A stretch of DNA of 64,000 bases, from positions 62,001 to 126,000 of the forward strand of contig NZ_BLAE01000036.1 in assembly GCF_009687865.1 (NCBI RefSeq), given 5' to 3'. The translations under genes and the position numbers were made by a program. Below the pieces are notes generated by a model, which saw only the letters and a program-made list of their open reading frames with translations, did no database searches and was not told where the DNA came from. Within the stretch, counting starts at the first letter, position 1. Every line of letters begins with the position of its first letter. This document shows, in pieces, positions 12,228-33,518 of the stretch. Source of the DNA: Acrocarpospora macrocephala. Lineage in GTDB: Bacteria; Actinomycetota; Actinomycetes; Streptosporangiales; Streptosporangiaceae.

Positions 12228-14141
12228 ATGCTCGGGAGCATGGTATTGCCCGCGCAGCGGGCGCTGGTTCCCCTGGACTCGGTGCTTGGACTGCTGGATT
12301 TGCTGCTGGATGAGACGGCCGATGAGCAGAGTGCCGTCGCGCCGCTCGCCGAGTCGCTTGACGGCGCCGAGCTGGCCGGCGTGCTGTGGCGGACGCGGCG
12401 GGTGCGGGCGGCGGTGGCGCGGTGGCGGCGGCGTGATCAGGAGCTGTCCGCGCTGCTGTCCAGCGCGCGTGAGCTGGCCGAGTTGCGCGATCTGGACGCG
12501 CTGCTGGACCGCCTGGTGGCCCGGGCGCATGACCTGGTGGGTACCGACGTGACGTATCTGTCGGAGTTCGACCAGGAGACCGATGAGTTGCGGGTGCGCT
12601 CGACGCTGGGCACGTTCGCGCCCGAGTTCCGCCGGCTTCGGGTGCCTCCGGGGAAGGGCCTGGCCGGGAAGGTCGTGTCTACGCGCAGCCCGCAGTGGAC
12701 GACGAACTATGACCACTATCTCGACGCGCCGCATGACGCGGAGATCGACGAGGCCGTGCGGGCCGAGGGGCTGGTGTCGCTGCTCGGTGTGCCGCTGGTG
12801 GCGGGCGACCGCGTGCTGGGCGTGCTGTTCGCGGCCAACCGTGACGAGCACGCGTTCACGCCCGAGGAGATCGCGCTGCTGTCGGCGTTCGCCGACCACG
12901 CGGCCGTGGTGTTGCAGACGGTGCACCTGCTGGCGCAGGCCCGCGCGTCGGCCGAGGCGGCGCGGGCGGCCAACGAGGATCTCGCGCGCACCATGGCGGC
13001 GAGGGAACGCGCCAGCGCGGTGCATCAGGATCTCACCAGCGCGGTGCTGCGCGGGGGTACCGCGCACGAGGTGGCCCGGACGCTGGCCGGCTCGCTGGGA
13101 CGGTCGGTGGAGATCTTCGACCGCGACCTGGCCCCGCTCGCCTCGGCGCGGACCGATGCCTCAGGGGAGTCCGTGACCGCGCACGTACGCGCCGCGGTCG
13201 AGCGCAGCCGTACCACGGGGCGGTGCGTGTTCCTGGACCCGTCGGATGACGGGGCGGCTGTCGTGGTCGCCGTGGTGGCCGCCGAGACGCTGCTCGGCGC
13301 GATCCTCGTCGGCTACGGCGATCTCGCGCTGGGTTCGGTCGAGCGGCGTACGATCGAGCGGGCGGCGCAGATCGTGGCCCTGCTGGCGCTGAAGCGGGAG
13401 GCCGTGGCCGAGGCCGAGGAGCGGGTGCGGGGAGAGCTGATCTCCGACATCCTGCTGGGCGACGGCGCGCACCGCGAGGAGCTGATGTTGCGGGCCCGCG
13501 CCCGCGGGGTCCGGCTGGAGTCGCTGCGCATGGTCGTCGCGGTGCTGGTGCCGCGGGACCGGCGCAGGGCGGCCGTGCAGGCGCTCGGCACCTGGCGGCC
13601 CGGCCTGCTGGCCGGTGAGCACGCGGGCTGTGTGGTCGTGCTGACGGACGCGGCCGACCCCGACAGCGCGGCGACCGAAGTCCGTGAGTGTGTAGGGGCG
13701 CCGGTGCTCGTGGTGGCCGACGCGCCCGTCGCCGCGTGGGGCGAGTTGGGCGCCCGGTTCGAGCCGCTGCGCCAGTGCGCCGAGCTGCTGCACGACTTGG
13801 GCATCCAGGACACGGCCGTCAACGCGGCGGCCTACCAGCCGTACCTGGCCCTGTTCGGCGCCAGGCGCGAGGGGATCGTCGCGTTCACCGAGGCGGTGCT
13901 CGGGCCGATGCTGCGCTGGGACCGCGATCATTCGACCGACCTGGTGCAGACGTTGCGCGTCTACGTCGACTCGCACTGCAGCCCGGCGCGGGCGGCGCGA
14001 GCGCTGAACGTGCACATCAACACGGTCAGCCAGCGCCTGGACAGGATCACCATGCTGCTCGGCCCGGCCTGGCGCGAGCCGGAGCCGTTCTTCCGCGTCA
14101 CCGTGGCCGTACGTATGCACGCCCTCGCGACTGGTCTGTGA
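12228..14141 (+). CDS. GAF-domain PucR/CdaR-type transcriptional regulator
   Basis: 637 residues; an ATG at 12240 is an alternative start. Residues about 75-235 form a GAF domain (LDALLDRLVARAHDLVGTDV, VPPGKGLAGKVV, LLGVPLVAGDRVLGVLFAAN). A short coiled region follows (about 235-260), then a CdaR GGDEF-like middle. The C-terminal PucR helix-turn-helix comprises LVQTLRVYVDSHCSPARAAR, ALNVHINTVSQRLDRI and a final AVRMHAL. Regulators of this build sense a small molecule through GAF and control adjacent catabolic operons. It lies 146 bases upstream of the HMG-CoA operon on the same strand, so it is the likely regulator of that operon (inference). Confidence 0.88.
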   Translation: MLGSMVLPAQRALVPLDSVLGLLDLLLDETADEQSAVAPLAESLDGAELAGVLWRTRRVRAAVARWRRRDQELSALLSSARELAELRDLDALLDRLVARAHDLVGTDVTYLSEFDQETDELRVRSTLGTFAPEFRRLRVPPGKGLAGKVVSTRSPQWTTNYDHYLDAPHDAEIDEAVRAEGLVSLLGVPLVAGDRVLGVLFAANRDEHAFTPEEIALLSAFADHAAVVLQTVHLLAQARASAEAARAANEDLARTMAARERASAVHQDLTSAVLRGGTAHEVARTLAGSLGRSVEIFDRDLAPLASARTDASGESVTAHVRAAVERSRTTGRCVFLDPSDDGAAVVVAVVAAETLLGAILVGYGDLALGSVERRTIERAAQIVALLALKREAVAEAEERVRGELISDILLGDGAHREELMLRARARGVRLESLRMVVAVLVPRDRRRAAVQALGTWRPGLLAGEHAGCVVVLTDAADPDSAATEVRECVGAPVLVVADAPVAAWGELGARFEPLRQCAELLHDLGIQDTAVNAAAYQPYLALFGARREGIVAFTEAVLGPMLRWDRDHSTDLVQTLRVYVDSHCSPARAARALNVHINTVSQRLDRITMLLGPAWREPEPFFRVTVAVRMHALATGL

Positions 14142-14287: not shown

Positions 14288-15580
14288 GTGGGTGTTCACA
14301 GCCGGCTGACGGGGTTGCGTGACCTGTCGCCCGGGGAGCGGCGGGCCCTCGCCGCGAAGAGCGCGGGGCTGGATCCCGGCGCGCTCGACGTGCTCGATCC
14401 GGCCGCGGGGCTCACCCTGGACCAGGCCGACCACATGATCGAGAACGTCGTCGGAGTGCTCGGGGTGCCGGTGGGCGTGGCCACGAACTTCAGAGTCAAC
14501 GGGTCCGACGTCCTGGTGCCGATGGCGACGGAGGAGCCGTCGGTGGTCGCCGCGGCGAGCAACGCCGCGCGTATCGCCCGCGTCCACGGTGGCTTCGCCA
14601 CGACGTGCTCGGCGCCGATCATGCAGGCGCAGGTGCAGGTGCTGGGCGCGGCCGATCCCCAGGCGGCGCGGCTGCGGCTGCTGGAGGCGCGCGGCGAGCT
14701 CACCGCGCTGGCGAACGCGCAGGACCCGCGGCTGGTGGAGTTCGGCGGCGGCGTGCGGGACATCACCGTACGGCTCGTGCCGTCGGGCGAGGACGTCTAC
14801 GTCGTGCTCCATCTCGTGGTCGACGTACGGGACGCGATGGGCGCCAACGCGGTGAACACGATGGCGGAGGCCGTGGCGGCCAGGGTGGGTGAGATCGCCG
14901 GGGGCCGCACCCTGCTGCGGATCCTGACCAACAAGGCGGACCTGCGCCTGGCCAGGGCACGCGCCGTCTTCGACGCCGAAGCCCTCGGGGGTCCGCAGGT
15001 GGTGCGGGACATCGTGCACGCGGCGGCGCTGGCCGAGGCCGATCCGTACCGGGCGGCGACGCACAACAAGGGCATCATGAACGGCGTCACCGCCGTGGTG
15101 CTGGCGACGGGCAACGACACCCGCGCGGTCGAGGCGGGCGCGCACTCCCACGCGGTCGCCCCGGACGGCCGCTACACCTCCCTGTCCCACTTCGAGCGCG
15201 ACGCCGAGGGCAACCTGTCCGGCTCCCTGGAACTGCCCATGCCGGTCGGCCTGGTCGGCGGGGCCACGAAGGTGCACCCGGTGGCGCGCGCGGCGGTGCG
15301 GCTGCTGGGGGTGCGGACCGCGAGCGAGCTGGCCGGCGTCGTCGCCGCGGTCGGGCTCGCGCAGAACCTCGCCGCGCTGCGGGCCCTGGCCACCGAGGGC
15401 ATCCAGCGCGGACACATGTCACTGCACGCCCGCAACGTGGCGGTGACCGCGGGCGCGAGCCCCGAGGAGATTCCCACGGTGGTCGCGCGCATGCTCGCCG
15501 CCAAAGCGGTACGCGCCGACCGTGCCGAGCAGATCCTGGCCGAGCTCCGCGCCGGAGCCGGTGCAGCCGAAGGAGACTGA
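14288..15580 (+). CDS. mvaA: Hydroxymethylglutaryl-CoA reductase, class II (degradative)
   Basis: 430 residues from the GTG at 14288, chosen because GGGAGG lies 4 bases upstream; the open frame upstream runs antisense to nothing sensible. Active-site motifs of class II enzymes are present: MATEEPSVVAAASNAARI (catalytic Glu), HNKGIMNG (catalytic Lys) and the C-terminal GHMSLHARNVAV (catalytic His). Class II enzymes usually work with NAD and, in Pseudomonas mevalonii, oxidise mevalonate plus CoA to HMG-CoA. An HMG-CoA lyase gene closes the same operon, which favours the catabolic direction over isoprenoid synthesis. There are no membrane segments. Confidence 0.92.
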   Translation: MGVHSRLTGLRDLSPGERRALAAKSAGLDPGALDVLDPAAGLTLDQADHMIENVVGVLGVPVGVATNFRVNGSDVLVPMATEEPSVVAAASNAARIARVHGGFATTCSAPIMQAQVQVLGAADPQAARLRLLEARGELTALANAQDPRLVEFGGGVRDITVRLVPSGEDVYVVLHLVVDVRDAMGANAVNTMAEAVAARVGEIAGGRTLLRILTNKADLRLARARAVFDAEALGGPQVVRDIVHAAALAEADPYRAATHNKGIMNGVTAVVLATGNDTRAVEAGAHSHAVAPDGRYTSLSHFERDAEGNLSGSLELPMPVGLVGGATKVHPVARAAVRLLGVRTASELAGVVAAVGLAQNLAALRALATEGIQRGHMSLHARNVAVTAGASPEEIPTVVARMLAAKAVRADRAEQILAELRAGAGAAEGD

Positions 15581-15586
15581 GCAGTC

Positions 15587-17644
15587 ATGATTTTGGACGT
15601 GGGCATCGACGTCGGGGGCACCTTCACCGACGCAGTCGCCATCGCCGACGGCCGCGCCGTGCGCGGCAAGGCGTTCTCGACACCGGACGTGACCACCGGC
15701 ATCCTCGCCGCGCTGAGCATCCTGCGCGAGCAGGTCGGGCTGAGCGAGGCGGAATTCTATCCGGCGATCGACCGGTTCGTGCTCGGCAACACCATCGTCA
15801 CCAACGCGGTGGACGAGCAGAAGTACGCCCGGGTGGGGTTGCTGACCACGCAGGGTTTCCGGGACACGTTGCGGATCGCCCGCTCCGCGCGTACCGACGA
15901 GCGCGACTCGCACAAACTGACCCCGCCGCCCGACATCGTGGACCGGCGTCTCATCGTCGAGGTGCCCGAACGCGTCGACGCGCACGGGACCGTGCTGGTG
16001 CCGCTGTCGCCCGGCGCCATCAGTACGAGCGTGGAGCAGGTGCTGGCGGCCGGCGCCGAGTCGATCGCCGTGTGCCTGCTGTGGTCCTTCCGCAACGACG
16101 CGCACGAGCGGGCGATCGCCGGCTACCTGCGCGAGCGCCACCCGGATGTGCCCTACTCGCTGTCCAGCGCGCTGACGCCGGTGTATCGGGAGTACGAGCG
16201 CATGGTGACCACGGCACTGGACGCGGCGGTCAAGCCGATCGTCGCGACCCACTTCCAGCAGCTCGCCGACGCTCTGGCCGCCAAGGGGCTGCGCACCAGG
16301 GTGCAGATCATGCAGGTCCACGGCGGGTTCCTCTCGGTCGAGGAGACCGCGCGGGCGCCGATCTCGATGTTCAACTCGGGTCCGGTGGGCGGGGTGACCG
16401 GCGCGCGCCTGCTCGGCATGCGGCTGGGTAGGCGCCGGGTGCTCACCGCTGATATGGGCGGGACGAGCCTGGACGCCGCCGCGATCATCGACGACGAGCT
16501 GCGGGTGCTGCCGCGGGCCGAGATCGGCGGGCTGCCCACCAGCCTCACCGCGGTGGACATCGAGACCATCGGCGCCGGGGGCGGCAGCCTGGGCTGGATC
16601 GACGGCCGCGGAGTGCTGCGCGTCGGCCCGCACAGCGCCGGTTCCGTGCCCGGGCCCGCCTGCTACGGCAAGGGCGGCGAACGTCCGGCCGTGACCGACG
16701 CCGCGCTGGTCATGGGGCTGATCAACCCCGAGTACTACCTGGGCGGTACGGTCACCCTGTCGCCGGGCAAGGCGCGGGAGGCGATTCGGCGGCACCTGGC
16801 CGAGCCGCTCGGGCTGTCCGAGGACGCCGCCGCGCACGGGATGTACCGGCTGGCGACCTCGCAGATGGCCAACGCGCTGCGCAAGATCACCGTCAACCGC
16901 GGGCACGATCCCCGCGAGTTCACCCTGGTCGGCTTCGGCGGCGCCTGCGGACTGTTCGCCGCCGCGATCGCCGCCGAGACGGGAGTAGGCGAGGTGGTCA
17001 TCCCGCGCAACGCCGCCGTCTTCTCGGCGTACGGGCTCATGCACGCGGACTCGGTCTTCTCGGCGGTCCAGACCAGCCCGTGGACGATGGACCAGCCGGC
17101 CGAGACGCTGGAGAAGGAGTTCGCCGCCCTGGAACAGCGGGCGCGCGACTGGTTCGACGCCGAGGGTATCCCCCAGGACCGCCGCGCGGTCTACCGCGAG
17201 GCCGACATGAAGTTCGTCGGCCAGATCTTCGAGGTGACCACGCGCCTGCCCGAGGAGCCGTTCGGGGAGGGCGACAAGGAGGCGTTGCGGCGGCGGTTCG
17301 TGGCGGACTACGAGGCCGAGTTCGGCACCGGCACCGCGTGGACCGAGGCCGAGGTGCTGCTGGTCAACTCGCGGGTGCGGGCGGTTGGCCGTACCGAGAC
17401 GCAGAACGTGACCGAGGCCGTCGGCCAGGAGCGGCACACCGCCACCGAGCGGGAGGTCATCGAGCCACTGTCCGGACACCGCCGCCACGTCGAGGCGCAC
17501 CGGGGGTTCGGCGCGCTCGGCAAGGCCGAGGGTCCCTGCCTGATCGAGGAGCCGGACACCACCGTCTACGTGCCGCCGAACGCGACGGTCGAAGTCATCG
17601 ACGGCGGGCACTTCCTCATCCGCCTGAACCACGCCGACGCCTGA
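15587..17644 (+). CDS. hyuA: Hydantoinase/oxoprolinase-family subunit A (acetone-carboxylase-beta-like)
   Basis: 685 residues, ATG with AAGGAG 13 bases upstream and 6 bases after the reductase stop. The N-terminus has the ASKHA phosphate loop (VGIDVGGTFTDAVAIADG). Later come LGNTIVTNAV, YREYERMVTTALDAAVKPIV, FNSGPVGGVTGARLLG, VLTADMGGTSLDAA, IGAGGGSLGWIDG and VGFGGACGLFAA. This is the ATP-using HyuA subunit found in hydantoinases, 5-oxoprolinases, and acetone and acetophenone carboxylases. The acetone-carboxylase-gamma-like tail on its HyuB partner makes a carboxylase more likely than a ring-opening amidase (inference). The substrate is unknown. Confidence 0.88.
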   Translation: MILDVGIDVGGTFTDAVAIADGRAVRGKAFSTPDVTTGILAALSILREQVGLSEAEFYPAIDRFVLGNTIVTNAVDEQKYARVGLLTTQGFRDTLRIARSARTDERDSHKLTPPPDIVDRRLIVEVPERVDAHGTVLVPLSPGAISTSVEQVLAAGAESIAVCLLWSFRNDAHERAIAGYLRERHPDVPYSLSSALTPVYREYERMVTTALDAAVKPIVATHFQQLADALAAKGLRTRVQIMQVHGGFLSVEETARAPISMFNSGPVGGVTGARLLGMRLGRRRVLTADMGGTSLDAAAIIDDELRVLPRAEIGGLPTSLTAVDIETIGAGGGSLGWIDGRGVLRVGPHSAGSVPGPACYGKGGERPAVTDAALVMGLINPEYYLGGTVTLSPGKAREAIRRHLAEPLGLSEDAAAHGMYRLATSQMANALRKITVNRGHDPREFTLVGFGGACGLFAAAIAAETGVGEVVIPRNAAVFSAYGLMHADSVFSAVQTSPWTMDQPAETLEKEFAALEQRARDWFDAEGIPQDRRAVYREADMKFVGQIFEVTTRLPEEPFGEGDKEALRRRFVADYEAEFGTGTAWTEAEVLLVNSRVRAVGRTETQNVTEAVGQERHTATEREVIEPLSGHRRHVEAHRGFGALGKAEGPCLIEEPDTTVYVPPNATVEVIDGGHFLIRLNHADA

Positions 17645-17660
17645 TCGAAGGAGACCCCCC

Positions 17661-19799
17661 GTGAGCTCACCGACGTCCGACTTCGACCCGATCACGCTGG
17701 AAGTGATCAGGATGCGCCTCGACTCGATCGTCGAGGAGATGGGCATCGCGATGATCCGGTCCTCCGGATCGCCCGTCATCACCGAGGCAGGTGACTTCAA
17801 CACCGCGCTGTTCGATCCCGAGGGACGCATCTACGCCTACTCCGACTACGTGCAATTCCACATCGGATCGGGCAGCGTTGCCGTCCGCAACCTGATCGAA
17901 GCCATCCGGGACGAGCCGGTGTATCCGGGCGACGCGTTCATCAGCAACGACCCGCACACCGCGGGGGCGAGCCACCCACCCGACACGAACGTGATCACCC
18001 CCATCTTCCACGGCGCGGAACTGGTCGGCTGGGCGCAGTCGCAGGCGCATCTGCTCGACGTCGGCGGGATGACCCCCGGCGGCTTCGCGCCCGGCGCCTA
18101 CGACTGCTACAGCGAGGCCCTGCGGCTGCCGCCCGGGGTCAAGGTCTTCGAGAAAGGAGAGCCGGTCGAGTGGGTCCGGCGGATCCTGCTCAACAACGTC
18201 CGCGTCCCGGTGCCCTATTGGAACGACGTGCGCAGCCTCGTGGCCAGCAACAACACAGGCATACGACGGCTGCTCGCCACGATCGAGGAGTTCGGGCTCG
18301 ACCGCTTCCGGGCCTACACGCGGCGCAACTTCGAGATCGCCGAGCAGGTCGTGCGCGACCGGCTGGCCCGCCTGCCCGACGGCGTGTGGGAGGCCGAGGA
18401 GTGGACCGAGCACAACGGACACACCGACGATCTCTACCAGGTCCGGTGCACGCTGACCAAGCGCGGCGGCCAGGCCACGCTGGACTTCACGGGGTCCAGC
18501 CCACAGACCGACGGGTTCGTCAACTGCAGCTACGGTGCCCTGGTGGGTAGTGTCGCCACCGCCGTCGTGCCGATCCTGGCGTGGGACGTGCCGTTCAACG
18601 AAGGCGTCATGACCGCCTTCGAAGTGGTCGCCGAGCCGGGGAGCATCGTCAACCCACGCCCGCCCGCGCCGATCAGCAACGGCCACCTCACCACCGGCGC
18701 CCGGGTCAGCAGACTGATCGTCAAGCTGTTCAACCAGCTGTGCCGGGCCAGCGACGACCCCGTCCTCCAGGGGCGTACGCAAGGGGTCTGGGCTGATTCC
18801 TGGACGGGCGGGATCTCGGCAGGAACCCGTGACGACGGCGGATATTTCGTGCTGTTCAACATGGACGGTGGCGGCATGGGAGCCGGCGCCCAGCCTGAAT
18901 CGGACGGCCTGGACTGCGCCGGGATGATGACGCAGATGAACAACATGCTGCCGGACGTGGAGATGAACGAGATGCTCTACCCGGTGCTCTACCTGTGGAA
19001 GCGACTCTCCCCCGCCAGCGCCGGCCACGGCGCCAACCGGGGCGGCCTCGGCCACGAGTTCGCCTGGACCCTGCACGGCGCGAGCCAGGTCACGCAGACC
19101 GTGTTCGCGCCCAGCGCCCAAGTGCCCGCCGACGGCTACGGCGGCGGCCTGCCCGGCGGCGGCAGCGGCCACCTTCTCTGCCGCGACACCGACGTCTGGC
19201 AGCTCATGTCCGGCGGCGCCGTCCCCACCGAGGAGAACCTCTCCGCGGCCACCAGGCAGTTGCTGGACATCAACCAGTACGACCTCACGGTCCGGCACGG
19301 CGACGTCTTCGTCCAGTGGATCGCCGGCGGAGGCGGCTACGGCGACCCCCTGCTGCGCGACCCGGCTCGAGTCGCGCGGGACGTCGTCGACGGCTACGTG
19401 ACCGCGGCCGCGGCCGAGCGCGTTTACGGCGTGGTGCTCGACGGCGACCAGGCCGACCTCACCGCGACCGCCGGGCGCAGGGCCGCGCTCCGCGCCGAAC
19501 GGCTGGGCGACGCACCCCCCGCGGCGGCGGTCCAGGACACGATGATCGGCATAGCCGGAGCCTCCGTCCCGCACCGGGGGCGGGACGGCCACTGGTACTG
19601 CCCGGCCAGCGGCGCCCTGATCAGCACCGCCGACGACTGGCATGACGACGCCCTGATCCGGACCCGTCCCGCCGCCGAACGCCTCGCCGAACTCGGCGTC
19701 CGGATCCGGCCCCGCCTCGGAGAGCCCGCCGTCCTGCTGGAGGAGTTCGTCAGCCCGGCCTGCGGCACCCTGCTGGAAACCAGAGTGTGCGCCCGATGA
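17661..19799 (+). CDS. hyuB: Hydantoinase B-type subunit fused to acetone-carboxylase-gamma-like domain
   Basis: 712 residues, GTG start with AAGGAG upstream. Residues 1 to about 600 are HyuB: FDPITLEVIRMRLDSIVEEM, ISNDPHTAGASHPPD, LLDVGGMTPGGF, LPGGGSGHL and IAGGGGYGDPLLRDP. Typical HyuB proteins end near 520-580. Here an extra tail (about 627-712) reads WYCPASGALISTADDWHDDA, then RIRPRLGEPAVLLEEF and SPACGTLLETRV. This matches the layout of the acetone carboxylase gamma subunit (Acetone_carb_G). Its CxxC pairs have decayed to CPASG and SPACG, so zinc binding may be lost. The fusion points to a ketone or branched-acid carboxylase. The stop overlaps the next start (ATGA). Confidence 0.85.
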   Translation: MSSPTSDFDPITLEVIRMRLDSIVEEMGIAMIRSSGSPVITEAGDFNTALFDPEGRIYAYSDYVQFHIGSGSVAVRNLIEAIRDEPVYPGDAFISNDPHTAGASHPPDTNVITPIFHGAELVGWAQSQAHLLDVGGMTPGGFAPGAYDCYSEALRLPPGVKVFEKGEPVEWVRRILLNNVRVPVPYWNDVRSLVASNNTGIRRLLATIEEFGLDRFRAYTRRNFEIAEQVVRDRLARLPDGVWEAEEWTEHNGHTDDLYQVRCTLTKRGGQATLDFTGSSPQTDGFVNCSYGALVGSVATAVVPILAWDVPFNEGVMTAFEVVAEPGSIVNPRPPAPISNGHLTTGARVSRLIVKLFNQLCRASDDPVLQGRTQGVWADSWTGGISAGTRDDGGYFVLFNMDGGGMGAGAQPESDGLDCAGMMTQMNNMLPDVEMNEMLYPVLYLWKRLSPASAGHGANRGGLGHEFAWTLHGASQVTQTVFAPSAQVPADGYGGGLPGGGSGHLLCRDTDVWQLMSGGAVPTEENLSAATRQLLDINQYDLTVRHGDVFVQWIAGGGGYGDPLLRDPARVARDVVDGYVTAAAAERVYGVVLDGDQADLTATAGRRAALRAERLGDAPPAAAVQDTMIGIAGASVPHRGRDGHWYCPASGALISTADDWHDDALIRTRPAAERLAELGVRIRPRLGEPAVLLEEFVSPACGTLLETRVCAR

Positions 19800-21046
19800 C
19801 CGCCGAGACCTGGGGCGACGACGACCCCGCCCCGGCGGAGCGCGGGCCCCTCGCCGGAGTCGTGGTGCTGGACATCACCCGGGTGGTCGCGGGCCCGTTC
19901 TGCTCGATGATCCTGGCCGACCTCGGCGCGACGGTGATCAAGATCGAGCGGCCGACCGACCCGGACTACGCCCGCGATTTCCCTCCGCATCTGCCGGCCG
20001 CCGACGGGAGCACGTTCAGCGCGTTCTTCGCGCAGTACAACCGCGGCAAGCTCGGGCTCACTCTCGACCTGGCCACGCCCGACGGGCAAGACCTGCTCAA
20101 GCAGCTCGTACGCCGGGCCGACGTGCTGGTGGAGAACTTCCGGCCGGGCACCATGGACAAGCTCGGCGTCGGGCCCGCCGTCCTGCGCGCGGAGAACCCC
20201 GGCCTGGTCTACACCGCCATCTCCGGTTTCGGCCAGACCGGGCCGTACCGGAGCAGGCCGGCCTACGACAACAGCGCGCAGGCCACCGGGGGCCTGTGGT
20301 CGATGAACGGCTACGCCGACCGGCCCCCGGTCCGGGTCGGCACGATCATCGGCGACCTGTCCGCCACCCTGTACGCCGTCATCGGCACCCTGGCCGCCCT
20401 GCGGCACGCCGAACGCACCGGCGAGGGCCAGCTCGTCGACGTGTCGCAGCAGGACTCGGTGCTGTCGCTGACCGAGAACGCGGTCGTGTCGTACACGGTG
20501 GACGGCGAGGTGCCCAGGCCGCTGGGCAACCAGCACCCGTTCGTACGCCCGTACGAGTTGTATCCGTGCAAGGACGGGTACGTCTTCTTCGGCGGCTACA
20601 CCGACAAGTTCTGGCGGCTGACGTGCACGATGTTCGACCGTCCCGAACTCGCCGGTGACCCGGAGATCGACACCATGGCCAAGCGGTTCGACCCCGATGT
20701 CTACTCCCGCCGGATTCGTCCGCTTCTGCTGGACTGGTTCGCGTCACGCACCCGCGCCGAACTCGAAGACCTGGCCGGCGACCAGGTGCCGCTGAGCGCG
20801 GTCAAGACCATCGCGGAAGTGGTGGACGATCCGCAGATCGCCGCGCGCGACATGATCGTCGACGTCGAGTACCCGGACTTCGGGCCGTTGCGGATGTTCG
20901 GCCAGCCGATCAAGCTCGACGTCACCCCCGCCCGGCCGCGTACGCTCGCCCCGCGCCCCGGCGAGCACACCGACGCCGTGCTGCGGGGCCTGCTGGACCT
21001 CTCCCTGCAGCGGATCGCCGAACTCCGCGCCGCAGGGGTGATCTGA
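19796..21046 (+). CDS. CaiB/BaiF (class III) CoA-transferase
   Basis: 416 residues from the ATG at 19796, which overlaps the HyuB stop as ATGA; a GTG at 19787 is possible. Family motifs are VVVLDITRVVAGPFCSMILADLGATVIKIE, NRGKLGLTLDL, ADVLVENFRPG and GPYRSRPAYDNSAQATGGLW. The last contains the catalytic aspartate that forms the aspartyl-CoA intermediate. These transferases move CoA between carboxylic acids. In this operon it probably activates the acid made by, or feeding into, the HyuAB step so that the hydratase and HMG-CoA lyase can act. A succinyl-CoA:HMG-type activity would fit but is not shown. Confidence 0.88.
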   Translation: MTAETWGDDDPAPAERGPLAGVVVLDITRVVAGPFCSMILADLGATVIKIERPTDPDYARDFPPHLPAADGSTFSAFFAQYNRGKLGLTLDLATPDGQDLLKQLVRRADVLVENFRPGTMDKLGVGPAVLRAENPGLVYTAISGFGQTGPYRSRPAYDNSAQATGGLWSMNGYADRPPVRVGTIIGDLSATLYAVIGTLAALRHAERTGEGQLVDVSQQDSVLSLTENAVVSYTVDGEVPRPLGNQHPFVRPYELYPCKDGYVFFGGYTDKFWRLTCTMFDRPELAGDPEIDTMAKRFDPDVYSRRIRPLLLDWFASRTRAELEDLAGDQVPLSAVKTIAEVVDDPQIAARDMIVDVEYPDFGPLRMFGQPIKLDVTPARPRTLAPRPGEHTDAVLRGLLDLSLQRIAELRAAGVI

Positions 21047-21829
21047 TTGACCATCGGCTTCGAGCGGGACGGGTCCACGGCCGTCATCTCCTTCGCCCGT
21101 CCCGCCAAGCTCAACGCGCTGACCCTGGCCATGTACGACGAGCTCGCCGACGCCTTCGCCCGGGTGCGGGACGACGACACGATCGCCGCGGCCGTCCTCA
21201 CCGGCGAGGGCGACCGCGCGTTCTGCGTCGGCGCGGACCTGGGCGAGTCGATCCCCGCGCTGGCCGAGGGGCGGTTCGACATCTCCCGCTGGGACGGCGC
21301 GCACCAGAAGCACACCAGCCTGTTCAAGCCGGTGATCGCCGCGGTCAACGGCCTGTGCCTGGGCGGCGGTTTCGAGATCATGCTCTCCACCGACCTGCGG
21401 GTCGCGAGCGAGGACGCCGAGTTCGGCCTGCCCGAGCCGGGCGTCGGAGTGGTACCGGCCGGGGGCACCCTCGCCCGGCTGACCCGGCAGATCCCGTACG
21501 CCTGGGCCATGCAGCTGCTGTTGCTCGGCGAGCGCGTCCCGGCCGCGGAAGCGCTGCGACTGGGCCTGCTCAACGCCGTCGTACCGGCGCCGGAGGTGAT
21601 GCCGACGGCGCTCGCGTGGGCCCGCCGGATCGGCGCGCTGTCCGGCACCGCGATCGCGACGATCAAGCAGGCCGTCCTGCGCCTGGGCGACCTCCCCCTT
21701 GACCAGGCGTTCCACGCCGAGGCGCTGTACGGGCAGCGGGCGTTCACCTCACCCGACGCCCGCGAGGGCTTGGCGGCCTTCGCCGCCCGCCGACCACCCG
21801 AGTTCCCCTCACGCAAGGGGCACGGGTGA
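21047..21829 (+). CDS. Enoyl-CoA hydratase/isomerase family protein
   Basis: 260 residues. The start is a TTG immediately after the CoA-transferase stop, with AGGGG about 8 bases upstream. Crotonase motifs: RAFCVGADLGE (oxyanion hole), KPVIAAVNGLCLGGGFEIML, LPEPGVGVVPAGGTLARLTR (with a Glu at the catalytic-region position), and AEALRLGLLNAVVPAPE. In this operon a plausible role is hydration of 3-methylglutaconyl-CoA to HMG-CoA, the step before HMG-CoA lyase in leucine and isoprenoid breakdown. That assignment rests on context only. The stop overlaps the lyase start (GTGA). Confidence 0.88.
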   Translation: MTIGFERDGSTAVISFARPAKLNALTLAMYDELADAFARVRDDDTIAAAVLTGEGDRAFCVGADLGESIPALAEGRFDISRWDGAHQKHTSLFKPVIAAVNGLCLGGGFEIMLSTDLRVASEDAEFGLPEPGVGVVPAGGTLARLTRQIPYAWAMQLLLLGERVPAAEALRLGLLNAVVPAPEVMPTALAWARRIGALSGTAIATIKQAVLRLGDLPLDQAFHAEALYGQRAFTSPDAREGLAAFAARRPPEFPSRKGHG

Positions 21830-22761
21830 ACCGCTACGGAGTCGACCCGTTGCCCGGCCTGCCCAGCCGGATAACGATCTGGGAGGTGGGGCCGCGGGAC
21901 GGCCTGCAGAACGAGGCCGCGATCCTGCCCGTCGAGGTGAAGGTCGAGCTCGTCGAGCGGCTCGCCGACGCCGGGCACACCGTCGTGGAGACCACCTCGC
22001 TGGTGCACCCGGAATGGGTGCCGCAACTCGCCGACGCCGAAGAGGTGCTGCGCCGGCTGAAGCGGCGCGACGGCGTGCGCTACCCGGTGCTCGTCCCGAA
22101 CGAACGCGGCCTGGACCGGGCGATCGGCCTCGGGCTCACCGACATCGCCGTCTTCGCCAGCGCCACCGAGTCCTTCGCCAGGGCCAACCTGAACCGGACA
22201 GTCGCCCAGTCGCTGGAGATGTTCGCCCCGGTGATCGCCCGCGCCCGCGAGGCGGGCCTGGGCGTGCGCGGCTACCTGTCGATGTGCTTCGGCGACCCGT
22301 GGGAGGGCGAGGTGCCGATCCCCCAGGTCGTCGCGGTCGCGACGCGGCTGCTCGCGCTCGGCTGCACCGAGCTCGGCCTCGGCGACACGATCGGCGTCGC
22401 GACCCCCGGCCGGGTCGCCGCGCTGCTCGACGCCCTAGTGGGCGCCGGGGTGCCGGTCGGACGGATCGGCGTGCACTTCCACGACACGTACGGCCAGGCC
22501 CTGGCGAACACCCTCGTCGCGCTCGGCCGCGGGGTCACCACGGTCGACGCGTCCGCCGGCGGCCTCGGCGGCTGCCCCTACGCCAGGAGCGCCACCGGCA
22601 ACCTCGCCACCGAGGACCTGCTCTGGCAACTGGCCGGCCTCGGCATCGACACCGGCGTGGACCTGGCCAAGCTGGCCGAGACGAGCACCTGGCTCGCCGC
22701 GCACCTGAACCGCCCGAGCCCTTCGCGCACGGTCCAGGCCCTCACACCGCCCGCGTGCTGA
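21826..22761 (+). CDS. mvaB: Hydroxymethylglutaryl-CoA lyase
   Basis: 311 residues, GTG start coupled to the hydratase stop. Diagnostic motifs: IWEVGPRDGLQNEA (catalytic Arg and Asp), VETTSLVHPEWVPQLADAEE, IGVHFHDTYGQALANTLVAL (metal-binding HxH) and AGGLGGCPYARSATGNLATE (catalytic Cys loop). It cleaves HMG-CoA into acetyl-CoA and acetoacetate using a divalent metal. It is the last gene of the operon and is followed by a hairpin, so it is the exit of the pathway into central metabolism. Confidence 0.93.
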   Translation: MNRYGVDPLPGLPSRITIWEVGPRDGLQNEAAILPVEVKVELVERLADAGHTVVETTSLVHPEWVPQLADAEEVLRRLKRRDGVRYPVLVPNERGLDRAIGLGLTDIAVFASATESFARANLNRTVAQSLEMFAPVIARAREAGLGVRGYLSMCFGDPWEGEVPIPQVVAVATRLLALGCTELGLGDTIGVATPGRVAALLDALVGAGVPVGRIGVHFHDTYGQALANTLVALGRGVTTVDASAGGLGGCPYARSATGNLATEDLLWQLAGLGIDTGVDLAKLAETSTWLAAHLNRPSPSRTVQALTPPAC

Positions 22762-23012: not shown

Positions 23013-23164
23013 GTTAAAGAATCATTCAGTACTGAATATTTATGCAGACGCGGACACGCAAGGGCCCAGCGATTCGCGTCCTCCGGGTTACCCAGCCATT
23101 ACGCCCCCTCCCCCAATCGCCGAACGGACACCCATGCCGTTCGCGCGTCTCCCAGAGGAGAACC

Positions 23165-24700
23165 ATGCGAACTCGTAAACCAAGATCAATAGCGGGCCGG
23201 ATCCTGCCGGTCGCGGCCGCCGGCGCGTTGGCCGCGGCGCTGCTGGCGGTCCCCGCGCACGCGGATCCGGACGACAGGGCGTCCGCGTTCGCCAAGGCAT
23301 GCCGTCATGCGGGCGAGCACGCGAACCAGGACAAGCCCAGGGTGATCGTGACGCAGGACGGCGAGGTGGACGACATGGATTCGTCCATCCGGTTCCTGTA
23401 CTACGCCAACGAGTTCGACATCGCGGGCATCATCTACTCCAGCTCCCGGTTCCACTGGGCCGGTGACGGAGGCTCGGTGGCGCCCTTCCGGTGGACCGGG
23501 ACGGACTGGGTCAACCAGTACATCGACCTGTACGCCCAGCTCTACCCGAATCTCAAGAAGCACGCCGACGGCTATCCGACCCCCGCCGCGCTCCGCTCCC
23601 TGTACAAGATCGGCAACATCGAGAACGTCAGCGAGATGACGAAGGTGACCGAGGGGTCGGAGTGGATCAGGAAGGTGATCCTCGACAACAAGCCCGGCCC
23701 GCTCTACGCCCAGGCCTGGGGCGGCCTCAACACCATCGCCCGGGCACTGAAGTCGATCCAGGAGGAGTACGAAGGCACCAGCCAGTGGCCGGCCATCCAG
23801 CAGAAGGTCAGCGACAAGCTGGTCATCTACAACATCCTCAACCAGGACGCCACACTCGCCGACTACATCAAGCCGAACTGGCCCCAGGTGAAGATCATCG
23901 ACAACCAGAGCCAGTTCTGGAGCTTCGCCTACCAGTGGAAGAGCAACGTGCCCGAGCCCTTCCAGTACACGCTGCGCGCGCCGTACATGGAGGCCAACTT
24001 CCTCAACGGCCACGGCGAGCTGTTCCAGCAGTACCGCACCTACCGGGACGGCAAGCCCACCCCCGGGGACGACCAGAACAATCGCTGGCGCCCGGAGCAG
24101 AACCTCACCTACGACGTCCATGACTTCATCTCCGAAGGCGACTCGCCGGCGTACATGTACCTGTTCGACTTCAACGGCCTGCGCTCGTCGGAGGACCCGA
24201 CGTACGGCGGCTGGGGCGGCAGGTTCGCGCCGAACGCCTCGGGCTGGATCGACACCTCCGACGTCAATCCGTACAGCTCGACCGCGACCAACCAGCGCAG
24301 GTATCCGCAGACGCGGTGGGTGGAGGACATCCAGAACGACTTCGCGGCACGCGCCGACTGGGGTATGACGCGGAAGTACTCCCAGGCCAACCACAACCCC
24401 GAGGCCTCGGTGAAGGAGGGCCTGGACCTGACCTGCAAGGCCGGATCGACGGTCACCCTGCGCGGCAAGGGCAAGGACCCCGACCACGACCGGCTGTCGT
24501 ACAAGTGGTGGCAGTACACCGACGCGGACACCTACCCGGGCGCCGTCGAACTCACCGGAGCCGACACGCCGTCGGTCTCGTTCACCGTGCCCGCCGACGC
24601 CGCCCCGGGCAGCACCATCCACCTGATCCTCGAGGTCAAGGACGACGGCACGCCCGCGCTGAAGCACTACCAGCGGGTCGTCATCACCGTATCCGGCTGA
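23165..24700 (+). CDS. Secreted DUF1593 / Sde182-like nucleoside-hydrolase-fold protein
   Basis: 511 residues from the ATG at 23165 (GAGGAG 6 bases upstream). A Sec signal peptide is clear: MRTRKPRS, a hydrophobic stretch, then AVPAHA-DPD as the likely cleavage site. The mature N-terminus carries PRVIVTQDGEVDDMDSSIRF, a nucleoside-hydrolase-like Asp cluster. The C-terminal 90 residues form an Ig-like beta domain (SVTLRGKGKDPDHDRLSYKW, FTVPADAAPGSTIHLILEVK). Proteins of this family (DUF1593) are secreted and occur with polysaccharide degradation. Here a shared operator links it to the sugar operon at 24856, so it may release that operon's sugar from a plant glycan (inference). The exact bond cleaved is unknown. 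Confidence 0.82.
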   Translation: MRTRKPRSIAGRILPVAAAGALAAALLAVPAHADPDDRASAFAKACRHAGEHANQDKPRVIVTQDGEVDDMDSSIRFLYYANEFDIAGIIYSSSRFHWAGDGGSVAPFRWTGTDWVNQYIDLYAQLYPNLKKHADGYPTPAALRSLYKIGNIENVSEMTKVTEGSEWIRKVILDNKPGPLYAQAWGGLNTIARALKSIQEEYEGTSQWPAIQQKVSDKLVIYNILNQDATLADYIKPNWPQVKIIDNQSQFWSFAYQWKSNVPEPFQYTLRAPYMEANFLNGHGELFQQYRTYRDGKPTPGDDQNNRWRPEQNLTYDVHDFISEGDSPAYMYLFDFNGLRSSEDPTYGGWGGRFAPNASGWIDTSDVNPYSSTATNQRRYPQTRWVEDIQNDFAARADWGMTRKYSQANHNPEASVKEGLDLTCKAGSTVTLRGKGKDPDHDRLSYKWWQYTDADTYPGAVELTGADTPSVSFTVPADAAPGSTIHLILEVKDDGTPALKHYQRVVITVSG

Positions 24701-24719
24701 TATTCGCCCACTGATGTAC

Positions 24720-24754
24720 GGCCATGCCCGCACCTCCGGGGTGCGGGCATGGCC
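24720..24754 (+). terminator. Perfect 15-bp-stem terminator hairpin
   Basis: The left arm 24720-24734 (GGCCATGCCCGCACC) pairs exactly with 24740-24754 around a 5-base loop, 20 bases after the sde182-like stop. The strong GC stem without a T-run is typical of actinomycete intrinsic terminators. It separates this gene from the following operon. Confidence 0.8.
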
Positions 24755-24809
24755 GGCGTCCTGCCTTGCCCGGAATCCCCACTCGACGTTCGTTGCCAGT
24801 TTGTTACAA

Positions 24810-24849
24810 GGACATGTCATTGACATCGACACAAAGTCACTCGTACGGT
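24810..24849 (+). promoter_or_regulatory. Palindromic operator copy 2 overlapping the isomerase operon promoter
   Basis: GGACATGTCATTGACAT (24810-24826) is identical over 17 bases to the inverted copy at 22902-22918. The operator palindrome is ATGTCATTGACAT (24814-24826). TTGACA (24820-24825) within it and TACGGT (24844-24849) are 18 bases apart and place transcription start at about 24856, the A of the isomerase ATG. A repressor bound here would cover the -35. The SorC-family protein encoded at 33575 is the obvious candidate (inference). Confidence 0.65.
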
Positions 24850-24855
24850 CTTCGT

Positions 24856-25869
24856 ATGCCTAATCAGTCACGAATAGAAATTCAAGACCGGGTATTCGGT
24901 GCCGGTATCTGGCACTTCGGCCGCTATGTCGACCGATACGCGACCGACGGATACGGCCCGCCGGTGAGCACCCTGCAGGCGATCGACCGCGCCGGGCAGG
25001 TCGAGGACCTGTCGGTGGTCGACCTGACCTTCCCCTTTGACCCGGCGGACCTGCCGGTAGCCGAGGTGGAGGACGCGCTCAAGCGCAACGGCCTGCGCGC
25101 GATCGCCATCACGCCGGAGATCTACACCAGGCGTTTCACCCGTGGCGCGTTCACCAACCCCGACGCCCAGGTGCGCCGGCAGGCGATCGAGCTGGTGTCG
25201 CAGGGCGCGGAGGTCGCGCGTCAGCTCGGCTGCGACTACGTCAAGCTCTGGCCGGGCCAGGACGGCTGGGACTACCCGTTCCAGGCCGACCACTCGCAGC
25301 TGTGGCGGTTCTCCCTGGACGCGGTGGGCGAGCTGGCGGCGGCCTTCCCCGACCTTCGCTTCGCGATCGAGTACAAGCCGCGCGAGCCGCGCAACAGCAT
25401 GGTGTTCTCCTCGGTGAGCAAGACGCTGCTCGGCATCGAGGAGATCGGCCTGCCCAACGTGGGCATCCTGCTCGACTTCGGCCACTCGCTGTACGGCGGC
25501 GAGAGCCCCGCCGACGCGGCCCGGCTCGCCATCTCGCGCGGGCGGCTCTTCGCGATCGACGTCAACGACAACTACCGCGGCTGGGACGACGACATGGTCG
25601 TCGGCTCCGTCCACCTGACCGAGACCTTCGAGTTTTTCTACGCCCTCCAGGACGCCGGCTGGGACGGCGTCTGGCAGCTCGACCAGTTCCCCTTCCGCGA
25701 GGACTCGGTCGAGGCGGCGCGGGCCGGCATCCGGGTCATGAAGGCCATCGACCGCGCGCTCGGGCTGGTCGACCGCGAGGCGCTCACTGCGGCTCAGCAG
25801 GCCCAGGACGCCCTGGCGGCCCAGCGCATCGTCCAGCGGGCGCTGCTCAGCACGATGGTAGAGCAGTGA
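24856..25869 (+). CDS. Xylose-isomerase-like TIM-barrel sugar isomerase (D-apiose isomerase candidate)
   Basis: 337 residues from the ATG at 24856. There is no ribosome site and the promoter geometry suggests a leaderless mRNA. The AP-endonuclease-2/xylose isomerase fold is visible, with metal and acid residues in [15 protein letters not shown] (Glu), [14 protein letters not shown] (Asp, His), [20 protein letters not shown] and [12 protein letters not shown]. Followed by a split transketolase and an FGGY kinase, it fits the published D-apiose route (isomerase ApsI, kinase AplK, transketolase AptAB), where it would convert D-apiose to apulose. The sugar assignment is from context; another branched or rare pentose or tetrose is possible. 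Confidence 0.72.
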
Positions 25870-26756
25870 TGACCCTGCTCCCCGCCGCGCCCCGGCCGGC
25901 CCGCGAGTACCGCCAGGTGGCCGAGCGCGTCCGTACCGGCGGCGACCAGACGGCCGCCGCCGAGCTGAACCGGATCTCCACGGAGGTCCGCCGCAGCATC
26001 ATCACGATGATCGAAAGGGCCAAGCTGGGGCACATCGGCGGCGACCTGTCGGTCACCGACATCCTCGTGACGTGCTTCTACGCGGTCCTGTCGGTCGACC
26101 CCGAGCAGCCGGACTGGGAGCGGCGCGACAGGTTCGTGCTCAGCAAGGGCCACTGCGCCGCCGCGCTGTACTCGACCCTCGCGCACTGCGGATTCTTCGA
26201 CACCGGCGAGCTCGCCACCTTCATGGCTCCGCTGTCGGCGCTCAACGGACACCCCAACAAGGTCAAGGTCCCCGGCGTGGAGACCAACACCGGGGCGCTC
26301 GGGCACGGCCTGCCGGTGGCCACGGGGTGCGCGGTGGGCGCCAAGCTGGACGGGGCGAGCTGGCGCACCGTCGTCGTCATGGGCGACGGCGAGCTGCAGG
26401 AGGGCAGCAACTGGGAGGCCGCGATGGCCGCCTCGCACCAGGGACTCTCCAACCTCACCGCGGTGATCGACCGGAACCGGTTGCAGCAGGGCGCGCGCAC
26501 CGAGGACACCAACCGGCTGGAGCCACTGGCCGAGAGATGGCATAGCTTCGGCTGGGAGGTGCGCGAGGTCGACGGCCATGACCACCTCGCCCTTCGCGCC
26601 GCGCTGCGCGGCTCTGACACCGGCAAACCCGTCGTCGTCATCGCGAACACCATTAAGGGGAAAGGCGTTTCGTTCATGGAGGATCGGGTCGAGTGGCACC
26701 ACAAGGTGCCGACCTCCGAGCAGGTCGAAGCCGCCCTCGCGGAGCTGGCCCGATGA
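25869..26756 (+). CDS. Transketolase N-terminal subunit (thiamine-diphosphate binding)
   Basis: 295 residues, ATG overlapping the isomerase stop (TGATG). It contains the transketolase N-domain only: RAKLGHIGGDLSVTDIL, LSKGHCAAALYSTLA, GALGHGLPVATGCAVG, then the thiamine-diphosphate motif VVMGDGELQEGSNWEAAMAA (GDG...N) and IANTIKGKGVSFMED. The pyrimidine domain is encoded separately by the next gene, so the enzyme is heterodimeric or heterotetrameric. In the apiose pathway the equivalent AptAB transfers a two-carbon ketol unit from apulose-4-phosphate, producing dihydroxyacetone phosphate. This subunit would be AptA if that assignment is right. Confidence 0.88.
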   Translation: MTLLPAAPRPAREYRQVAERVRTGGDQTAAAELNRISTEVRRSIITMIERAKLGHIGGDLSVTDILVTCFYAVLSVDPEQPDWERRDRFVLSKGHCAAALYSTLAHCGFFDTGELATFMAPLSALNGHPNKVKVPGVETNTGALGHGLPVATGCAVGAKLDGASWRTVVVMGDGELQEGSNWEAAMAASHQGLSNLTAVIDRNRLQQGARTEDTNRLEPLAERWHSFGWEVREVDGHDHLALRAALRGSDTGKPVVVIANTIKGKGVSFMEDRVEWHHKVPTSEQVEAALAELAR

Positions 26757-27706
26757 CCGTACTGGAGCAGCAGGCGACCTTCGACTGCCGCCAGGCCTTC
26801 GCCGAGGAACTCAGCGCGCTCGCCCGCCAGGACGAGCGGATCGTGGCGATATGCAATGACTCCGTCGGCTCCAGCAATCTCGTCGGCTTCCGCGAGGAGT
26901 TCCCCGACCGGTTGATCAATGTCGGCATCGCCGAGCAGGAGCTCGTCGGCCTCGCGGCCGGTCTGGCCAACGCGGGCAAGATCCCGTTCGTCTGCGCGGC
27001 GGCCCCGTTCCTCACCGGTCGGGCGCTGGAGCAGATCAAGGCGGACGTCGCCTACAGCGAGGCCCACGTCGTGCTGTGCGGGCAGTCCCCGGGCATGGCG
27101 TACGGCGAGCTCGGTCCCACCCATCACTCCATCGAGGACCTGTCCTGGGTGCGGGCGGTCGCCAACCTGGACGTGATCGTTCCGGCCGACCCCGTGCAGA
27201 CGCGCCTGGCGGTGCGCTGGGCCGCGGCCTCCAGCCGCCCCTCCTACCTGCGCATCCCCCGCTTCAAGGTGCCCGCGGTCACGCCCGCGGACGCGCCGTT
27301 CGAGCCGCGCCGGGCGGTGCTCCTGCGGGACGGCGACGACGTCACGGTGATCGCCATCGGCTCGCTGACGTCGCGCGCGCTGCAGGCGGCCGACCGGCTG
27401 AGCGAGGAGGGCGTGTCGGTACGCGTGCTGAACATGCCCTTCATCGAACCGCTGGACCTGGACTCCGTCCTCGCCGCCGCCCGCGAGACCCGGGGCATCG
27501 TGACCGCCGAGGAGGCCACCATCAGCGGCGGTCTCGGCGCCGCGGTGGCCGCCGCCGTCGTCACCAACCACCCCGCTCCGATGCGGATACTCGGCGTACC
27601 GCGGGTCTTCGCCCCCACCGGGGACACCGCCTTCCTGCTCGATCATTTCGGTCTCTCCGCGGACGGCATCGCCGAGGCTGTACGGAGCCTGCTCAGCCAT
27701 GGCTAA
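26753..27706 (+). CDS. Transketolase C-terminal subunit (pyrimidine and C-domains)
   Basis: 317 residues from the ATG at 26753, coupled to the preceding stop (ATGA). It carries FPDRLINVGIAEQELVGLAAGLA, whose Glu activates thiamine diphosphate. GRALEQIKADVAYSEAHVVL, ELGPTHHSIEDLSWVRAV and a C-terminal transketolase domain (VTVIAIGSLTSRALQAADRL) follow. It pairs with the N-terminal subunit at 25869 to make one active enzyme. The split two-gene form is usual for catabolic sugar-specific transketolases such as apulose-4-phosphate transketolase. Confidence 0.88.
   Translation: MTVLEQQATFDCRQAFAEELSALARQDERIVAICNDSVGSSNLVGFREEFPDRLINVGIAEQELVGLAAGLANAGKIPFVCAAAPFLTGRALEQIKADVAYSEAHVVLCGQSPGMAYGELGPTHHSIEDLSWVRAVANLDVIVPADPVQTRLAVRWAAASSRPSYLRIPRFKVPAVTPADAPFEPRRAVLLRDGDDVTVIAIGSLTSRALQAADRLSEEGVSVRVLNMPFIEPLDLDSVLAAARETRGIVTAEEATISGGLGAAVAAAVVTNHPAPMRILGVPRVFAPTGDTAFLLDHFGLSADGIAEAVRSLLSHG

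Positions 27707-31340: not shown

Positions 31341-31344
<4 letters not shown>
29809..31344 (+). CDS. Sugar ABC transporter ATPase (RbsA-type, two nucleotide-binding domains)
   Basis: 511 residues, coupled to the DUF2291 stop. Domain 1 has Walker A GENGAGKSTLMKIL, signature LRLGQQQLVEIARTL and Walker B VLIMDEPTSALT. Domain 2 (from about residue 260) has the degenerate GLMGSGRSELLETL loop, signature LSGGNQQKVVIGKALL and VLLLDEPSRGVDVG. This asymmetry is typical of CUT2-family ATPases, which energise import of pentoses and rare sugars through the permease encoded next. Confidence 0.93.
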
Positions 31345-33484
<2,140 letters not shown>

Positions 33485-33489
33485 ACCGC

Positions 33490-33518
33490 CGGCGGAAGGG
33501 CGCGTAGCGTCCTTCCGC
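33490..33518 (+). terminator. Terminator hairpin after the sugar operon
   Basis: GGCGGAAGG (33490-33498) pairs with CCTTCCGCC (33510-33518), and further C-G pairs extend into the loop. It begins 6 bases after the binding-protein stop and separates the operon from the SorC-family regulator gene. Confidence 0.75.

Follow-up and report, generated by a model that had tools for sequence, protein, structure and literature searches.

Six genes at positions 14288 to 22761 of a 64,000-nucleotide stretch of DNA from Acrocarpospora macrocephala (NZ_BLAE01000036.1, positions 62,001 to 126,000; the whole stretch is called the window below) form a conserved set that very probably serves catabolic convergence on 3-hydroxy-3-methylglutaryl coenzyme A (HMG-CoA), as an earlier reading of the letters alone (the sequence-only reading) had proposed. 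They encode a degradative HMG-CoA reductase (HMGR), a HyuA and a HyuB subunit, the latter with a fused domain resembling the gamma subunit of acetone carboxylase, a CaiB-type CoA-transferase, a crotonase-family hydratase (ECH) and an HMG-CoA lyase (HMGL). The gene set is real and, apparently, undescribed, combining known families in a new way and with a fused architecture; among the literature matches listed (titles and abstract openings, with few subscription journals) none dealt with this set or with a HyuB-gamma fusion, which agrees with the earlier statement that no described pathway has it. The sequence-only reading as a whole is supported in part. We favour a catabolic module through which small branched acids of the isoprenoid type would reach HMG-CoA, with HyuA and HyuB (HyuAB) as the carboxylase that supplies them; the mechanism is plausible, and we put this explanation, taken whole, a little under an even chance.

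The six genes and the ends of the route

All six open reading frames are open and intact on the forward strand, the distances between them being, in order, 6, 16, -13, 0 and -4 bases, and the family models agree with the names that the sequence-only reading had given to this coupled group. The first gene, HMGR (14288 to 15580), is of the class II degradative type, scoring 408.9 bits against TIGR00532 (cut-off 259.95) and 433.4 bits against structure 1qax, which we take to be the Pseudomonas mevalonii enzyme, and its E83, K261, D277 and H376 are invariant in 62 of 62 aligned homologues. The last, HMGL (21826 to 22761), scores 382.2 bits against NF004283 (cut-off 246), with R24, D25, H217, H219 and C250 invariant in 36 of 36. 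These residue counts, like those for CaiB, the crotonase and HyuA below, come from aligned homologue columns in which three genomes are counted twice, and we presume that the invariant positions of HMGR, HMGL, CaiB and the crotonase have the active-site roles familiar from their families. Sequence and gene context together support a reductase that would oxidise mevalonate, or mevaldate, to HMG-CoA (the HMGR reaction includes a mevaldate half-reaction) and a lyase that would cleave HMG-CoA to acetyl-CoA and acetoacetate. A biosynthetic HMGR was considered and rejected, since the model exceeded is that of the degradative type and the HMGR search of the 12.1 Mb genome gives a single match.

Mevalonate catabolism in Pseudomonas mevalonii rests on just such a pair of HMGR and HMGL. 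The window resembles it in placing a degradative class II reductase with all catalytic residues and a lyase in one gene group; it differs in the four extra genes between the two, in the GAF/PucR-type regulator upstream, and in that the lyase is not constant, being nearby in 22 of 30 related cassettes. The sequence-only reading had treated the two as the known pair, and this holds for their degradative type but not for their pairing, because it is the reductase, CaiB and the hydratase that stay together.

The CaiB/BaiF family III CoA-transferase (19787 to 21046; CoA_transf_3, 418.4 bits) more likely begins at the ATG at 19796, which would overlap the HyuB stop as ATGA, than at the GTG at 19787. 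Its Asp190 is invariant in 52 of 52 homologues, and in the crotonase that follows (21047 to 21829; ECH_1) the two catalytic glutamates, E110 and E130, are invariant in 38 of 38. For CaiB the top two NCBIfam models act on dicarboxylates, and both stay below cut-off: mesaconate CoA-transferase (322.9 bits, cut-off 700) and glutarate CoA-transferase (296.8 bits, cut-off 750). A family III CoA-transferase is likewise paired with a crotonase hydratase in the CaiB/CaiD carnitine cycle, but the window proteins fall below both carnitine cut-offs (129 bits against 413 for the carnitine CoA-transferase model, 142.5 against 500 for the crotonobetainyl-CoA hydratase model) and are linked to HMGR.

Conservation beside the reductase and sister loci

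With HyuB alone as bait, and one genome per species, 37 loci were recovered. Thirty are complete HyuA-HyuB-CaiB-ECH cassettes, and outside them stand four fragments of one draft genome (L056, L057, L061, L062) and three HyuAB loci (L053, L055, L059) that have neither CaiB nor HMGR. HMGR lies within the examined flank of all 30 cassettes, several of which are close relatives and do not count as independent events. They come from 12 genera (Streptomyces, Phytohabitans, Prauserella, Saccharopolyspora, Amycolatopsis, Actinomadura, Aeromicrobium, Brevibacterium, Rhodococcus, Nocardia, Acrocarpospora and Thermocrispum) and show four gene orders, with HMGR divergent in 16, colinear and upstream, as in the window, in eight, colinear and downstream in five (Brevibacterium, Aeromicrobium) and convergent in one (Rhodococcus); gene calls in the relatives were made with a GC3 script and are approximate. 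The conserved co-occurrence for which the sequence-only reading had called is thus found in actinomycetes, and we reject chance adjacency of HMGR and cassette given linkage in 30 of 30 across 12 genera. The same genes are annotated, under RefSeq names, on a plasmid of Rhodococcus; the plasmid matches by tblastn mostly carry unnamed hydantoinase annotations, and four were examined closely.

The reductase also occurs with other partners. HMGR was found in 25 of 297 genomes of the same order and 16 of 394 of the class, the 394-genome searches with HyuB, HMGR and CaiB being taken as one draw, and all but G085 and G452 were typed with wider flanks at identity thresholds of 60% for ECH, 55% for CaiB and HyuAB, 50% for the TctA-type (tripartite tricarboxylate) transporter and Amidohydro_3, and 40% for an unrelated hydratase of the FAS1-DH type (FAS1DH); G085 offered only a short locus (L023: regulator, HMGR, CaiB), and G452 was read separately. 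The 63 typed rows represent 60 distinct loci, three being duplicates with identical CaiB (L075 = L058, L076 = L042, L077 = L051), and L077 is without a crotonase only where its locus is cut, its duplicate L051 having one. Thirty-three distinct loci carry HyuAB, CaiB and ECH, 12 carry CaiB and FAS1DH, one carries CaiB and ECH, and 12 carry TctA; L085 has a TctA at 39%, under the threshold, and L062 is a contig end. A hydratase of one family or the other accompanies CaiB in 46 of the 46 distinct CaiB loci typed, while among the 60 distinct loci both hydratases never share a locus and CaiB never occurs with TctA. In the CaiB tree the FAS1DH kind groups as a single clade that lies within the ECH kinds (100/99). 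A CaiB search of the 394 genomes found a close homologue in eight, the window's own included, all among the 16 with HMGR; this search was not exhaustive, having missed a known carrier (G488, with CaiB in L124). The TctA-type transporter stands beside HMGR in L078, L081-L084, L086-L090, L117 and L119, where it is probably a candidate system for mevalonate uptake.

Since reductase, CaiB and hydratase persist together without HyuAB, we regard CaiB and the hydratase as the core and HyuAB as an optional supplier of their acid, and the exchange of one hydratase family for another is the best sign that hydration is a step of the pathway. That the two form an enoic-acid hydrating pair is, in our judgement, quite likely; we read them as acting on an unsaturated acid that may be imported and that would feed HMGR or HMG-CoA. 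The sequence-only reading had likewise placed CaiB and the crotonase in the middle of the route, which is supported; HyuAB, which it had put at the start of the second entry, is here taken as optional, and the pair may feed the reductase, through mevalonate or mevaldate, rather than bypass it. G640 (L121, L147) and G452 (L148, L149) each have, separate from their CaiB-FAS1DH locus, an MFS-CaiB-ECH-regulator cassette that lacks HyuAB; the HyuA homologues in the stretches examined are distant ones (30%), and the two CaiB-hydratase systems perhaps serve different isomers of one acid. Searches for a HyuB of the cassette clade gave no match in G640 at 1e-150, and none was listed for G452, G640 or G625 at 1e-100.

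HyuA, HyuB and the fused gamma domain

HyuA (15587 to 17644; Pfam Hydant_A_N and Hydantoinase_A) is an ASKHA-type ATP-binding subunit whose phosphate-motif aspartates 8, 15 and 289 are the same in all 53 homologues. The R/KERiDsxG segment, which PMC5214803 gives as the mark of a beta-contacting alpha subunit, reads PERVDAHG in the window and so differs in its first residue; of the 53 homologues, all have E, R and G, and 50 have D. HyuB (17661 to 19799; 712 residues, Pfam Hydantoinase_B at residues 9-563) has at D45, H105, D108 and H130 a metal site of the acetone carboxylase type, its ligands (His/Asp/His plus Glu or Asp, taken from PMC8453981 and PMC5543143) mapping onto the four CapB ligands in the alignment, and 18 of the 19 fused HyuB rows, counted by eye, retain the D/H/D/H pattern.

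The tail of HyuB, about residues 637-712 (19569 to 19796), resembles the gamma subunit of acetone carboxylase, as the sequence-only reading had noticed, and three kinds of evidence agree on this. Against Pfam PF08882 (Acetone_carb_G) it scores 23.5 bits (cut-off 21); a profile built from 16 tails has two acetone carboxylase gamma chains and the small subunit of acetophenone carboxylase as its top three PDB matches (5m45_C/5svb_C/5l9w_C; E 0.005-0.026); and for the predicted fold of an 89-residue tail (mean pLDDT 86) Foldseek places acetone carboxylase gamma chains at ranks 1-4 in the PDB (E 9e-4 to 3e-3), the next match having E = 1.0. A weaker model of the whole of HyuB (mean pLDDT 63) matches N-methylhydantoinase, caprolactamase, acetophenone and acetone carboxylase subunits first, with gamma-type chains at ranks 8-12. 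According to PMC5214803, acxC lies directly downstream of acxB, so that a HyuB-gamma fusion is the expected product of a merger of the two genes; the same paper has the gamma subunit absent from any hydantoinase complex and the beta subunit of hydantoinases some 150 residues shorter than its acetone carboxylase counterpart. A hydantoinase would thus have two genes only, without gamma, and a short beta subunit, whereas here gamma is present and HyuB has 712 residues.

In its parts the pair can be set beside acetone carboxylase AcxABC (5m45/5svb), with which it shares a HyuA-like ATP subunit, a HyuB-like metal subunit with its ligands kept and a gamma-type domain, in the order A-B-gamma; it differs in a core sequence nearer to lactamases and in a gamma domain that is fused to HyuB, not encoded by a separate acxC gene, and keeps two of four zinc cysteines. 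Acetophenone carboxylase ApcABCD(E) (5l9w) likewise has alpha, beta and gamma parts, and CoA-activating genes lie near HyuAB in several wider relatives; unlike it, the window locus has one HyuA only, and neither an alpha' second kinase subunit nor an epsilon subunit appears in the six genes or in those flanking genes that were scanned. Caprolactamase CapAB and N-methylhydantoinase are the nearest characterised sequences to the HyuAB core, but CapB has 581 residues against the 712 of HyuB with its gamma domain, and the CapA and CapB NCBIfam models give 470.7 and 237.2 bits against a cut-off of 1000. We rejected an assignment to acetone carboxylase, to acetophenone carboxylase or to caprolactamase, since the pair lacks at least one defining feature of each. 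If the carboxylase reading holds, the fused branch would add a third lineage to the ketone-carboxylase-like enzymes; its members seen here belong to actinomycetes, a haloarchaeon and an alphaproteobacterium.

The neighbours of the wider fused relatives favour a carboxylase, though as gene context only. Among 15 such loci outside the cassette clade, seven have a homologue of CoA ligase close by, in two cases a weak one (24-26%). L055 and L059 (60-65% identical) have a CoA ligase, a zinc alcohol dehydrogenase (ADH), an acyl-CoA dehydrogenase, a short-chain dehydrogenase/reductase, a thiolase and a crotonase as neighbours, and a CoA ligase and ADH-type genes adjoin L053 and L096. The latter, on a plasmid of Natrinema caseinilyticum, combines a haloarchaeal HyuA/HyuB-gamma with CaiB, the CoA ligase, a butanediol dehydrogenase and a branched-chain-type ABC transporter; elsewhere the neighbours include a FadB-like protein (L126), a thiolase (L128) and a putative cyclase (L127). 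In L131, of which L132 is a near copy, HyuAB-gamma lies beside a LigB extradiol dioxygenase, a dienelactone hydrolase and a 4-hydroxy-2-oxovalerate-type aldolase, and may be a carboxylase of aromatic ketones. Pfam scans of part of the neighbours found no aminotransferase or deaminase family.

The Acrocarpospora macrocephala genome holds a second HyuA/HyuB-gamma pair (G000:C34:46971-51157, or L074:6972-11158), 94% and 91% identical to that of the window and adjoining a GAF-histidine kinase gene that is divergent; the surrounding 18 kb gave no match for CaiB, ECH or HMGR. Fragments L057 and L061 suggest such a second pair in Acrocarpospora pleiomorpha too. The window itself has another HyuA/HyuB pair on the reverse strand (52312 to 56186), of ordinary hydantoinase length and without a gamma domain, its HyuB (52312 to 54033) being a short, hydantoinase-like beta subunit of 573 residues.

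A proposed route, its alternatives and its setting

In the explanation that we favour, HyuA and HyuB-gamma would act as a biotin-independent, ATP-dependent carboxylase, in the manner of acetone or acetophenone carboxylase but with the small zinc-type subunit joined to HyuB, and would turn a C5 precursor, such as 3-methylcrotonate or prenal, into a C6 3-methyl-2-enoic acid, on which CaiB would load CoA and which the crotonase would then hydrate. Were the acid 3-methylglutaconate, the crotonase product would be HMG-CoA directly; were it anhydromevalonate or its aldehyde, the product would be mevalonyl- or mevaldyl-CoA, from which CaiB might pass the CoA to the next enoic acid, much as in the CaiB/CaiD cycle, and HMGR would take over. 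HMGR would yield HMG-CoA, and HMGL acetyl-CoA and acetoacetate. C6 3-methyl-2-enoic acids fit because the best models of CaiB concern dicarboxylates, because hydration of such acids gives HMG-CoA or mevalonate and because HMGR is the constant partner; to make them, a carboxylase would have to start from a C5 3-methyl-butenyl compound. That HyuAB is a carboxylase we hold to be somewhat better than an even prospect, while the assignment of a C5-to-C6 substrate is tentative and would have to be put well below even.

The leucine route proceeds through a biotin-dependent methylcrotonyl-CoA carboxylase, methylglutaconyl-CoA hydratase and HMG-CoA lyase. Ours would share its end, from 3-methylglutaconyl-CoA through HMG-CoA to acetoacetate, but carboxylation would be biotin-free and would precede CoA attachment, the reverse of leucine/geraniol logic. 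A biotin-independent entry of this precise form, with HyuA/HyuB-gamma carboxylating either free C5 isoprenoid compound and CaiB and the hydratase yielding mevalonate, mevaldate or HMG-CoA, we consider rather unlikely.

Several observations weigh against the favoured explanation. Deprotonating a free enoic acid is chemically hard, and no NCBIfam model above its cut-off names a substrate for CaiB, ECH or HyuAB. Taking the best chain of each characterised enzyme, HyuA scores 387 bits against N-methylhydantoinase, 312.5 against caprolactamase, 295.7 against acetophenone carboxylase and 233.7 against acetone carboxylase; the corresponding figures for HyuB are 216.1, 194.6, 148.8 and 114, so that acetone carboxylase is lowest of the four for both. 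A HyuA tree, with four characterised PDB references only, on long branches, sets acetone and acetophenone carboxylase apart from all others (96/96, with a long-branch warning) and leaves the fused proteins in a polytomy with N-methylhydantoinase and CapA; the tree comparison proposed by the sequence-only reading thus puts HyuA inside no characterised hydantoinase or oxoprolinase clade, but not with the two carboxylases either. These core scores and the unresolved tree mean that sequence alone does not separate carboxylase from hydrolase. As to the gamma domain, whose role in acetone carboxylase itself is called unclear in PMC5543143 and PMC5214803, all four cysteines occur in 16 of 19 fused HyuB rows by eye, distant plasmid relatives of Natrinema, Niveispirillum and Mycobacterium among them, and of the other three the window and L053 keep two while L133 stops before the domain; most cassette HyuB keep one or two, the loss lying in cassettes outside the Nocardiaceae. 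Because the distant fused relatives keep four and most cassettes one or two, the domain would be old in the fused branch and its zinc site would have decayed later in much of the cassette clade. Gene context adds that eight of the 15 wider fused loci have no CoA ligase by the queries used; that an Amidohydro_3 gene takes the expected place of the acid supplier in six of the 12 CaiB-FAS1DH loci, which hints at an amide, with weak homologues (25-28%) near three HyuAB cassettes (L040, L048, L049); that the Brevibacterium cassettes L046-L049 have close to them a DAO-family oxidoreductase, an enzyme that might act on an amine; and that locus kinds cluster by lineage, so that exclusions such as that between CaiB and TctA rest on few independent events.

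Much of this would suit a different role for HyuAB, as an ATP-dependent hydrolase of the lactamase or hydantoinase type that would release the enoic acid by cleaving an amide, imide or lactam, with gamma as a structural leftover and CaiB, ECH, HMGR and HMGL acting as set out above. The core sequence nearest to hydrolases, the decayed zinc cysteines, the Amidohydro_3 gene in place of HyuAB and the DAO-family oxidoreductase all speak for it, and possible substrates exist in the anhydromevalonyl and methylglutaconyl groups of fungal hydroxamate siderophores. Ferrichrome A carries a methylglutaconyl group. Anhydromevalonyl acyl groups are reported on fungal ferrichromes and fusarinines in PMC8781417. 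We nevertheless judge a hydrolase unlikely, since it would have to accommodate a gamma subunit that, according to PMC5214803, no hydantoinase complex has, since no aminotransferase or deaminase appears in the neighbours scanned, since several wider fused relatives adjoin CoA ligases, ADH or thiolase, and since hydrolysis of a hydroxamate or lactone needs no ATP.

A carboxylase acting on a plain ketone would also agree with a gamma domain like that of acetone carboxylase. Acetoacetate, the lyase product, decarboxylates to acetone, which HyuAB might recapture, with CaiB activating the acetoacetate that both reactions share, in a salvage of carbon lost in mevalonate breakdown; yet this would leave without a role the hydratase that accompanies every distinct CaiB locus typed, CaiB and hydratase also occur without HyuAB (L118, L147, L149), and the lyase is near only 22 of the 30 cassettes, all of which makes the idea improbable. 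More improbable still is a pair of unrelated operons, in which a HyuAB cassette with some other purpose stands next to ordinary mevalonate catabolism (HMGR, HMGL) and only chance or shared regulation links the two. The divergence of HMGR from HyuA in 16 of the 30 cassettes, the second HyuAB-gamma pair standing without CaiB or ECH and the 12 loci in which HMGR accompanies TctA without CaiB or HyuAB would agree with it, but HMGR remains near every complete cassette in 12 genera while the gene order changes, close CaiB homologues were found in HMGR genomes only (8 of 8), and in the window a gap of six bases couples HMGR to HyuA.

The favoured explanation points to an undescribed catabolic route in at least 12 actinomycete genera, by which soil bacteria could use mevalonate-related acids of fungal origin or from isoprenoid breakdown. 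If HyuAB carboxylates a C5 substrate, it would bring a carboxylation chemistry that needs no biotin and a new entry to HMG-CoA, of use in mevalonate engineering; even if HyuAB is a hydrolase, the association of CaiB, hydratase and HMGR gives a directly testable pathway.

Directly upstream of HMGR, on the same strand, lies a GAF-domain regulator with a PucR-type C-terminal helix-turn-helix (12228 to 14141; Pfam GAF_2/HTH_30), with a homologue in 61 of 63 HMGR rows, and this gene, on which the sequence-only reading had not remarked, is the probable regulator of the island. A promoter scan of the locus found none, and a terminator scan found one terminator-like site, inside CaiB, where shuffled sequences give more. 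The nearest named relative is Acrocarpospora catenulata, whose HyuB is 95% identical. Elsewhere in the window, positions 59752 to 62416 hold an ABC ATPase and a periplasmic binding protein of the sugar type, and a separate sugar cluster follows the six genes at 23042 to 34558, with a Sde182 nucleoside-hydrolase-like protein, a xylose-isomerase-like protein, a transketolase C-half, an FGGY kinase, a sugar ABC transporter and a regulator with a sugar-binding domain (PF04198, DeoR-like).

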